NCBI RefSeq assembly: GCF_017744135.1
Contig: NZ_JAGHQU010000001.1
Location: 1 to 64,000 of the forward strand
DNA from: Endozoicomonas sp. G2_2
GTDB lineage: Bacteria > Pseudomonadota > Gammaproteobacteria > Nevskiales > Salinisphaeraceae
Length of the DNA: 64,000 nucleotides
Direction: 5' to 3'
Part shown: in pieces, positions 49,295 to 51,344 of the stretch
Layout: every line of letters begins with the position of its first letter
How positions within the stretch are numbered: the first letter of the stretch is position 1
The notes under the pieces: generated by a model
Told to the model about the DNA's origin: nothing
Databases searched by the model: none
Seen by the model: the letters and a program-made list of their open reading frames with translations, nothing else
Position numbers and translations under genes: made by a program

Positions 49295-49786
49295 TCAGGC
49301 CGCGCCGGACTCGCCGAGGATATGATCGACCGCCTTGTGCATTTCCTCTTCGGAAAGATCCGGGTTGCCGCCCTTGGCCGGCATGCCCTTGTAACCGTTG
49401 ATGGCGCGCTTGTAGAGCGTGTCCTTGCCCTGTTCGGACAGGCGCTTCTTCCATTCCGCGGTATCCGACGTCTTCGGCGCGCCGGCGACGCCTGAAGCGT
49501 GGCAGGCGGAACAGACGTTGTTGTATACCTCGGAGCCCGACATCGGCTCGCCACCGCTGTCGCCGCCCGCTGCCGCCAGCGATGTGGCGTTCGGATCCGT
49601 GTTGACCGCGTAAACCGGTTCGGTGCGGCTCTTCACGCGCGTGAGCTGTTCCGGACGCATGCCATCGTTCGCGTTCCAGTTGGTGATCATCCGCGCACCG
49701 AAGATCGCCACGATCGTGATCAGGAACAGCACGCCCAGCACGATCGTGAAAGCGCGAAAGAAGGTCTGGTCAGAATTGGCGGTCAT
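49295..49786 (-). CDS. Membrane-anchored cytochrome c5-like protein
   Basis: This 163-residue protein has an N-terminal membrane helix ([20 protein letters not shown]) and a Gly/Asp-rich linker. A C-terminal monohaem domain with VCSACH (about residues 91-96) and the axial Met in YKGMPAKGG follows. It should carry electrons at the outer face of the inner membrane. Relatives work with terminal oxidases. The terminator at 49241-49267 ends the gene. Confidence 0.9.
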
Positions 49787-49923
49787 AGCAAGGCTTTGAG
49801 TCTGCGTGGTCGAACGAGCGCATGAGAGCGCGCAGTATAACGGATTTTGATTTCGTCACGGATACGAGGCGGGCGCATGCATGGACGCGACGCGGCGGTG
49901 TGCGTATCCTTTGCCGCGCTAGG

Positions 49924-50000
49924 GCGCCCGTAGCTCAGCTGGATAGAGTGTCGGCCTCCGAAGCCGAAGGTCGCAGGTTCGAATCCTGCCGGGCGCACCA
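49924..50000 (+). tRNA. tRNA-Arg (anticodon CCG)
   Basis: The full cloverleaf is visible. Acceptor arms are GCGCCCG and CGGGCGC, the D arm is GCTC-AGCTGGATA-GAGT, and the anticodon stem TCGGC/GCCGA has loop CTCCGAA (anticodon CCG, reading CGG). The T arm is GCAGG-TTCGAAT-CCTGC, followed by discriminator A and an encoded CCA. The gene is followed at once by a terminator-like hairpin and tandem repeats. Confidence 0.96.
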
Positions 50001-50036
50001 TATAAAAATGCCGGCCGCAGTGCCGGTATTTTTATA
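50001..50036 (+). terminator. Terminator-like hairpin of repeat unit 1 (tRNA terminator)
   Basis: TATAAAAATGCCGGC (50001-50015) pairs with GCCGGTATTTTTATA (50022-50036), with T residues in the distal arm. It begins right after the tRNA CCA. Confidence 0.85.
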
Positions 50037-50176
50037 TGGTCCATCGATAAGTTTCGAACCTGCGACAAACAAACAAGCTGGTTCGACGGGCTCGCACAGC
50101 GAGTCCGAACCGTCGCGCAAGCGACGGGCCCGACGGGTGAGCGGCGTAGCCGCGAATAATCCTGCCGGGCGCACCA

Positions 50177-50212
50177 TATGAAAATGCCGGCCGTAGAGCC
50201 GGTATTTTTATA
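50177..50212 (+). terminator. Terminator-like hairpin of repeat unit 2
   Basis: The stem is TATGAAAATGCCGGC (50177-50191) with GCCGGTATTTTTATA (50198-50212). The loop is CGTAGA instead of CGCAGT in unit 1, and G replaces A in the left arm. It lies directly after the second copy of the tRNA 3' end. Confidence 0.85.
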
Positions 50213-50352
50213 TGGTCTGTCGATAAGTTTCGAACCTGCGACAAACAAACAAGCTGGTTCGACGGCTTCGCGAAGCGAAGCCGAACCGTCGCGTCAGCGA
50301 CGGGCCCGAAGGGCGAGGCGCGATAGCGCCGAGTAATCCTGCCGGGCGCACC

Positions 50353-50388
50353 AATAAAAAGACCCGCCGCAGAGCGGGTTTTTTTATT
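50353..50388 (+). terminator. Terminator-like hairpin of repeat unit 3
   Basis: ACCCGC (50362-50367) and GCGGGT (50374-50379) form the core stem, extended by an A-rich left arm and a run of seven T residues on the right. The core differs in sequence from units 1 and 2 but keeps the pairing and the loop pattern (CGCAGA). Confidence 0.85.
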
Positions 50389-50483
50389 GGTATATCGATA
50401 GGCCTCGAACCTGCGACAACCAACAAGCATGGTTCGACGGCGTCGCGCTAGCGTCCGGTCCGGCAAGCCGCCCGCTACGTGGG

Positions 50484-51344
50484 TCAGTCGAACGGCGGCT
50501 CGGCCTGCCAGTCGAAAAAGTCCGGCATGTCGGTCGACACCTTGTTCGGGAACTCGGCCGTGCGTTTTTCCAGGAATGACGATACGCCCTCATGCGCGTC
50601 GGCGGACTTGCCGCGCGAGATGATCGCCTGGCTGTCGATGCGATGTGCGTCCATGGGGTGTCCGGCTGCATGCATGCGCCAGAGCATCTGTCGCGTCATC
50701 GCCACGGACACCGGCGCGCTTTCGTCGGTGAGTTCGTGCGCCAGGGCAACGGCGGCGGGGTAGAGATCGTCGGGCGCGTGCAGGGAACGAACCAGGCCGC
50801 GCTCCCGTGCCTCGCTGGCCGGAAATACGCGGCCGGAATAGCACCACTCCAGCGCGGTCGACAGGCCCACGGTGCGGGTCAGAAACCAGGAGGAGGCGGC
50901 TTCCGGCGTGATGCCGCGCCGGCTGAACACGAAGCCGAACTTGGCGGTTTCGGAAGCGATCCGGATGTCCATGGGGAGCTGCATGGTCGCGCCGATGCCC
51001 ACCGCTGCGCCGTTGATGGCGCCAATCACGGGCTTGAGGCTGCGAAAGATGCGCAGCGTGGTCTGGCCGCCACCGTCGCGCCTGTGGTCCTCGCCGGCGC
51101 GCTTGTCGTAGTCGAAGGTATCGCCGCCCGACGACAGATCGGCGCCGGCACAGAAGGCACGCCCGCGCCCGGTCACGATCACCGCCCGCACGTCGTCGTT
51201 GGCGTCGGTGTGATCAAACGCCGCGATGATCTCGTCCTTCATCTGCGGCGTGAAGGCGTTCATCTTCTCGGGCCGGTCCAGCCACAGGGTGGCGATGCCG
51301 TCGTCGATGTCGAGCGAGATGGTCGAGAACTGCGGTGCGGTCAT
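50484..51344 (-). CDS. Enoyl-CoA hydratase/isomerase family protein
   Basis: This 286-residue crotonase has oxyanion-hole segments GRAFCAGADLSSGGDTFDYD and INGAAVGIGATMQLPMDIRI. A single candidate acid residue sits in GITPEAASSW. The first hydratase Glu is replaced by Thr, so an isomerase or other crotonase reaction is more likely than hydration. A charged insertion (KRAGEDHRRDGGGQ) follows the first motif. It lies 43 bp after an SDR gene on the same strand, so the two form an operon at the edge of the acyl-CoA island. Confidence 0.85.
   Translation of the reverse strand: MTAPQFSTISLDIDDGIATLWLDRPEKMNAFTPQMKDEIIAAFDHTDANDDVRAVIVTGRGRAFCAGADLSSGGDTFDYDKRAGEDHRRDGGGQTTLRIFRSLKPVIGAINGAAVGIGATMQLPMDIRIASETAKFGFVFSRRGITPEAASSWFLTRTVGLSTALEWCYSGRVFPASEARERGLVRSLHAPDDLYPAAVALAHELTDESAPVSVAMTRQMLWRMHAAGHPMDAHRIDSQAIISRGKSADAHEGVSSFLEKRTAEFPNKVSTDMPDFFDWQAEPPFD

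Follow-up and report, generated by a model that had tools for sequence, protein, structure and literature searches.

The window, a stretch of 64,000 nucleotides from Endozoicomonas sp. G2_2, contains a tRNA-Arg(CCG) gene on the plus strand (49924..50000; ARAGORN; RF00005, 73.4 bits) that hosts a tandem array. The array sits between this gene and a convergent enoyl-CoA hydratase/isomerase gene on the minus strand (50484..51344; PF00378), which forms a flank outside the element. Two complete units of 176 and 177 bp are followed by a third that ends after its first core hairpin, at ~50458, slightly later than the end of the interval 49924-50445 assigned in the initial annotation. TRF describes the repeat as 49982-50447, with a period of 176, 2.6 copies, 86% matches and a score of 678.

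The source of the repeated piece is the genuine 3′ end of the tRNA (nt 58-76; 49982..50000, plus strand). As had been noted at the outset, these last 19 bp recur exactly twice downstream, at spacings of 176 and 177 bp, in tail copy 1 (50158-50176, plus strand, 19/19) and tail copy 2 (50335-50353, plus strand, 19/19). Genuine end and copies alike run into a hairpin of 18-19 bp in which the ACCA end takes part. Hairpin 1 (49997..50040) has 19 bp, its ACCA end paired with TGGT, and is followed by hairpin 2 (50173..50216) and hairpin 3 (50350..50391); all three lie on the plus strand, were recovered by repeat analysis, by a terminator scan of the minus strand and by folding, and have fold z values of -7.2, -9.6 and -8.9. 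The claim that each copy carries its own terminator-like hairpin holds for the hairpins themselves, but the simple consensus scan (three terminators found vs 0.8 expected) calls them terminator-like on the minus strand only. Putative plus-strand termination at the three hairpins is read from the sequence, not from the scan. No sigma-70-like promoter was found in 49750-50550.

After every hairpin stands TTCGAACCTGCGAC, the reverse complement of tRNA-Arg(CCG) nt 46-59, on the minus strand: antisense copy 1 (50053..50066, 14/14; repeat analysis and antisense matching), copy 2 (50229..50242, 14/14; repeat analysis) and copy 3 (50405..50417, 13/14 nt, by eye and from the repeat family). The inverted T-arm part reported earlier is therefore present, but it extends into the variable loop (nt 46-48) and matches tRNA-Arg(CCG) rather than a generic T arm. 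A sense T-arm half, GGTTCGA, follows on the plus strand at 50080..50086 in unit 1, where the fold pairs it with the antisense copy, and at 50256..50262 in unit 2. Next come core 1 (50087..50158; hairpins H1, H2, H2b and H3; end GAATA) and core 2 (50263..50335; end GAGTA), both on the plus strand and both identified with the RtT CM, with model R1 and by folding. The incomplete third unit comprises GGTTCGA and the first core hairpin without a tail copy (50431..50458, end approximate, plus strand; by eye and from the repeat family).

Kinship with RtT and the plan of a unit

At the Rfam gathering threshold, the window yields the tRNA only. With an E-value threshold, the RtT (RF00391) CM matches unit 2 (50207-50353, 43.6 bits, E 4.5e-7) and unit 1 (50031-50176, 28.7 bits, E 0.0022), the alignment covering CM positions 1-130 of 130. 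Both scores lie below the curated gathering score of 45 bits, which is an operating cut-off and not a biological feature. An Rfam search with the repeat unit, as had been suggested, thus reaches RtT just under the cut-off, and the suspected likeness to E. coli rtT becomes an end-to-end alignment. The aligned letters of unit 2 take in the core, including GCCCGAAGGGCGAG and GAGUAAUCC, which argues that the window units are homologous to RtT; judged by its sequence, the array is a homologue of E. coli RtT beyond the shared geometry. The earlier alternative of a convergent or ancient origin survives in its second half, as an old, non-local phenomenon, whereas convergence is contradicted by the full alignment and the common core motifs.

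RtT of E. coli (tyrT/tyrV, RttR) likewise consists of tandem units of ~178 bp that hold the tRNA's last 19 bp, and it has the antisense arm, GGTTCGA, matching core hairpins and the GARTAATCC junction. The window array differs in its host tRNA, Arg(CCG), in the absence of P1 from the predicted fold and in the CCA-pairing hairpin of each unit. In E. coli K-12, the 3′ end of the 171-nt RttR feature coincides exactly with the CCA in one of the tail copies. The window array is a new Arg-type variant of RtT, in an unexpected wider context. Model R1, built from 59 units, gives 18 matches in this genome, with 102.4 bits for unit 1 (50033-50176) and 104.4 bits for unit 2; unit 1 itself, the sister of unit 2, was among the units used for training.

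Units behind several tRNAs share one plan: an antisense copy of the tRNA 3′ part, a linker, sense GGTTCGA, the core and sense nt 59-76. The core consists of four hairpins, starts with C and ends with GARTA, and measures 69-79 nt in this genus. It interrupts the sense tRNA 3′ part in the T-loop between A58 and A59, at GA^ATCC, with a sharp tail boundary at nt 58; the repeated 19 bp thus consist of nt 59-76 preceded by the final A of the core. The same length of 19 bp is found in E. coli and in this genome because the core occupies the same T-loop position.

The arms follow the host. Among 66 first units, preselected at <=5 tail mismatches, the highest-scoring antisense match without gaps averages 13.8 for the local tRNA, vs 9.1 for other isotypes and 7.1 for shuffles, and the local score exceeds every non-local one in 52 of the 66. 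To the left of the core, the sense half likewise tracks the local tRNA, at nt 50 (0.58 vs 0.26 for other isotypes) and at nt 51 (0.74 vs 0.33; 65 units). Arrays were found in this genome at four Arg isoacceptors (CCG, ACG, TCT and CCT), and each complements its own nt 46-59. For nt 46-51 of the antisense arm, Arg units offer no clear pairing partner of their own, yet these positions match the local tRNA.

Two other loci of this genome are of note. On contig C4 (68174-68561), a degenerate tRNA-Arg(CCT) without a T arm passes straight into an RtT-type hairpin and is followed by two RtT matches, an arrangement that resembles a recombination scar. The Tyr unit (contig C27, 156024-156157) is flanked by tRNA-Tyr and tRNA-Gly/Thr, all on the same strand, and would therefore be transcribed if these form one operon; by eye, its tail copy stops before CCA and it is without an obvious terminator-like hairpin.

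Spread behind tRNA genes

In a sample of 185 genomes of the class, 41 have RtT matches at E <=0.01, 11 above the cut-off. Within the genus, 12 of 14 genomes have matches at E <=0.1 and 8 of 14, this genome not among them, exceed 45 bits; the other two give no RtT match at E 0.1, so the element is dispensable. Sampling the phylum gives matches in 27 of 200 genomes, and all 16 of those outside the class belong to one family (f187). In this family, seven of eight resolved arrays stand behind tRNA-Ser and one behind tRNA-Gln. R1 at E <=0.001 finds units in 78 of the 185 class genomes, some of which supplied R1 units; these large genome searches use stricter filters and miss weak matches.

The fair test of tail identity is confined to the 60 loci outside R1 training, which hold 93 R1 matches. 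An upstream same-strand tRNA is present in 55 of them, and the nearest unit lies 5-71 nt behind it in 54 of the 55, the remaining one being at 385 nt. Tail identity to the local tRNA is at least 18/19 in 43 of the 55 loci and below 18/19 in 12, with a mean of 17.5 for local tRNAs vs 11.2 for other isotypes. The isotypes are Ser (20), Arg (12), Gln (11), Pro (5, counting the locus with its tRNA 385 nt off, L199, where the tail is unmatched), Glu (4) and Val, Thr and Tyr (one each). The tail of the Thr locus matches at 8/19 in register and that of another Thr case at 16/19; Lys was found at other loci, outside this set. In total the RtT core stands behind nine tRNA isotypes, mostly with local tRNA sequence.

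The remaining five of the 60 loci have no tRNA upstream, and one of these five is truncated at a contig end. Four R1 matches without an upstream tRNA in the fetched stretch (L205, L200, L193 and L228) are possibly orphaned arrays; L205 is tandem, with a 213-bp period. A core-pattern scan of named genomes returned at least 169 matches in at least 118 stretches, and the 80 titles seen from these are nearly all Gammaproteobacteria, the rest being unclassified Proteobacteria and one Hylemonella MAG (contig edge). Among the matches listed, an upstream tRNA accompanies 70 of 118 locus-strands, 67 of them within 300 nt, and the tail reaches at least 18/19 in 50 of these 67.

RNA structure and a second setting of the core

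Fold z averages -4.0 over 65 units and lies below -2 in 56 of them; the window cores reach -5.07 (unit 1) and -5.32 (unit 2). Hairpins H1, H2, H2b and H3 and the junction motifs are present in the window units by alignment and pair counts. H1, H2 and H3 form in the window folds, and the H2b strand is partly paired with the tail. Between units 1 and 2, two or more base pairs in the first core hairpin have changed on both sides and are still paired (by eye). A tandem GA motif in RtT is mentioned in passages of PMC7657543.

The comparative alignment holds 59 of 66 units, one having been dropped for N letters and six omitted by eye (five like kept congeners, one over-long). In it, 86.9% of cells are paired vs 69.6% after shuffling. 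Double-change cells number 370, vs 128.9 (sd 10.5) in shuffles, which leave sequence relatedness in, and at most 104 with partners slid, a control that preserves relatedness. Counting instead the pairs in which any double change occurs (22 vs 20.0 shuffled) shows no clear excess, as 58 of 500 shuffles reach 22. G-U cells outnumber A-C cells by 49:8 in P2, H2, H2b and H3 together, and therefore fit a plus-strand RNA. H1 has the opposite trend (G-U 8 vs A-C 17), maybe through misalignment, and P1 stands at 58:42; alignment is poorer in both H1 and P1. Compensatory changes far above both controls, together with the G-U excess, argue that the structure of the RNA is under selection in RtT-type units, as the initial annotation had surmised from the loops and hairpins of this locus.

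P1, in which the antisense arm pairs with the tail, varies with the host. Out of 10 possible pairs, the 13 Tyr and 15 Gln units keep 6-10 and the sole Lys unit keeps 9, whereas the 16 Ser units range from 5 to 10 and the 14 Arg units from 3 to 7. Window unit 1 has 7 of 10 in the alignment, but P1 is missing from the minimum-energy folds of the window units.

Away from tRNAs, CGTC-type palindromes likewise hold the RtT core, again at GA^ATCC. Among the matches listed, 54 are without an upstream tRNA in the stretch and 33 of these are also without a CCA-like tail; one (L270) looks tRNA-derived and was dropped, leaving 32. Among these listed cores, GAAC is at the right place in 29 of 32, though not required by the pattern, the left junction is GGAC in 27, a TCATNCC-like arm lies upstream in 21 and an unfilled partner arm lies within 160 nt in 6. 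H2 has at least three pairs in 28 of 29 listed non-tRNA cores vs 14% of shuffles. R1 at E <=0.001 matched 28 of 31 listed non-tRNA loci, all preselected by the core pattern. Rfam gave no RtT match at E 0.05 for the CGTC-type cores of six loci tried.

The hosts of the non-tRNA cores are CGTC-type palindromes as set out in sections of PMC3733652. Six such genomes carry 4 to 83 copies of the unfilled palindrome, counted in one form. When ATCC was removed from the pattern, 15 of 369 genomes matched and a reversed-pattern control gave zero; 23 of 30 distinct matches run on into ATCC and four are in neither home. Taken together, the pattern scans place the core mostly with the same two junctions, GA/C and GARTA/ATCC, in both homes. 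Cores outside tRNA and CGTC-type palindrome contexts are those of L387, L392, L396 and L405; by eye, two of them (L392 and L405) seem to be enclosed by inverted repeats of another kind. Inspection by eye showed no CGTC-type REP palindrome CGTCATTCC...GGAATCCA around the core of the window units, whose arms are tRNA-derived instead.

Published repeats provide partial parallels. CGTC-type REPs share with the array that some hold the same core at GA^ATCC, as the present analysis finds; they differ in that the palindromes are unrelated to tRNA, and the sections of PMC3733652 considered here make no mention of the core. A link between the core and these REPs was not found in the literature searched, which included those parts of PMC3733652. 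That rtT resembles BIME repeats of enterobacteria has already been published, in a section of PMC2965389. The BIME-type candidate attenuators treated there are repeat elements resembling the rtT transcript, but they lie upstream of protein genes in enterobacteria, and that section describes no tRNA parts. Tentatively, and with the odds somewhat against it, the RtT core may be an independent insertable module, a multi-hairpin junction of ~60-80 nt that sits at GA^ATCC inside inverted repeats, with either inverted copies of tRNA 3′ ends or CGTC-type REPs as hosts. Since tRNA-host arms stay matched to the local tRNA, each array could yield an antisense RNA against its own tRNA's T arm.

Alternative readings and proposed working

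Comparison of relatives, proposed at the outset, gave 0 to 3 units at tRNA-Arg(CCG) in congeners. By tail count, there are 3, 3, 2, 1, 1 and 1 units in six congeners whose left flank is conserved; a further locus (L022) has zero, and another (L010) is cut by a contig end. Downstream of the tRNA in L022, the right-side sequence is unlike that of the window and may be an inserted island. A VNTR at rtT, of 122 or 175 bp, is listed for Salmonella in part of PMC2658671. Core likeness across genomes is 0.80 for the same anticodon (77 pairs; 29 cores); for other amino acids it is 0.72 within a genome (20 pairs) vs 0.73 between genomes (246 pairs). The higher likeness at the same anticodon, with no difference otherwise within and between genomes, points to inheritance by locus. 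Recent hopping inside the genus, which we had considered, is not seen in these values.

These comparisons bear on the most serious competing reading, in which selfish or neutral palindromic repeats (REP/MITE-like) colonised tRNA 3′ ends and the RNA fold is a by-product of DNA element movement. The core's presence in CGTC-type palindromes off tRNAs, the variable copy number in congeners and the rtT-BIME likeness described in PMC2965389 (in the section cited above) would all fit. However, the 49:8 excess of G-U over A-C across four helices speaks for a single RNA strand, core likeness shows no recent spread in the genus, and matches to PF00589 and PF01797, the sole transposase-type families searched, and in this genome alone, are not near the window array. 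We consider this reading rather unlikely. A RAYT-type transposase nearby was also considered and rejected, one of the two Y1_Tnp matches lying ~180 kb off on the same contig and the other on another contig.

An array of three 18-19-bp hairpins between the tRNA-Arg gene and a convergent enoyl-CoA hydratase gene could instead serve mainly as stacked bidirectional terminators. This would leave the conserved core, the antisense arm and the tail copies unexplained, and Tyr units, some inside a tRNA cluster, are without such a hairpin (by eye), which makes a chiefly terminating role improbable.

Less probable still are integration scars left by an integrase-driven element in the tRNA 3′ end. The tail copies do resemble att duplications, and the break falls in the T-loop, a usual place of integrase crossover; by blastn, the left flank recurs in 10 of 29 other loci and the right flank in 0 of 29. 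An integrase or an att-flanked island, which the initial annotation held would favour such scars, did not emerge: this genome has nine integrase (PF00589) match rows, but the window's contig has none of them, and the nearest integrase on the other array contigs is >50 kb away, in a check that left the far side of one Arg(ACG) array beyond its contig end. A viral collection holds five stretches with the exact core pattern, three of them behind a tRNA, and the interior of the units is a conserved, covarying RNA. With no integrase near the array and few viral core matches, an integrase scar was rejected as the main reading. An integrase decoy was rejected by reasoning, because the units are without an uninterrupted left half of the T arm. 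Independent invention of the E. coli tyrT geometry, which the different tRNA and organism might suggest, is hardly credible beside a full-length RtT alignment with common core motifs.

We therefore favour, at a probability of about 70%, the reading of the array as tandem RtT-family structured-RNA units of an Arg-type variant that would act by read-through, processing and antisense pairing. On this model, tRNA transcripts reading past the CCA-pairing hairpin would carry one or more units, and tRNA 3′-maturation enzymes would take the tail copy for a tRNA end and free an RNA of ~130-175 nt. The freed RNA would fold into a multi-helix junction, a structure backed by covariation. At the weakest step, the antisense arm may close the RNA against the tail copy in Tyr, Gln, the sole Lys and partly Ser units, and in Arg units may be left free to pair with the tRNA T arm; such pairing could tune tRNA maturation or sense read-through. 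Because congeners carry 0 to 3 units at tRNA-Arg(CCG), copy number probably shifts by unequal recombination between units.

Expression has been reported for relatives of the element. RtT homologues Arrc20 and Arrc21 of Actinobacillus pleuropneumoniae gave Northern signals, according to the relevant portion of PMC4986893. They too lie beside tRNA genes, given there as upstream of Asn- and Lys-tRNA genes, but in a bacterium of another family. The same portion credits a stringent-response effect to Bosl and Kersten 1991. In one E. coli screen, RttR overexpression gave 97 +/- 9%, with no effect marked in the part of PMC4606813 concerned. The literature searched yielded no dedicated paper on tRNA-tail repeats, and the parts of PMC2658671 and PMC7657543 considered here name RtT in passing.

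In print, RtT is chiefly an element of tyrT and a few other tRNA loci, its small RNA having first been described in 1991. The present results extend it to an RNA element that is widespread, linked to tRNA genes and equipped with arms that track the host tRNA, and account for the 19-bp repeated piece in both E. coli and this genome. They also offer two testable ideas: that the arrays may yield RNA antisense to the tRNA T arm, and that they may share a movable core with palindromic repeats.
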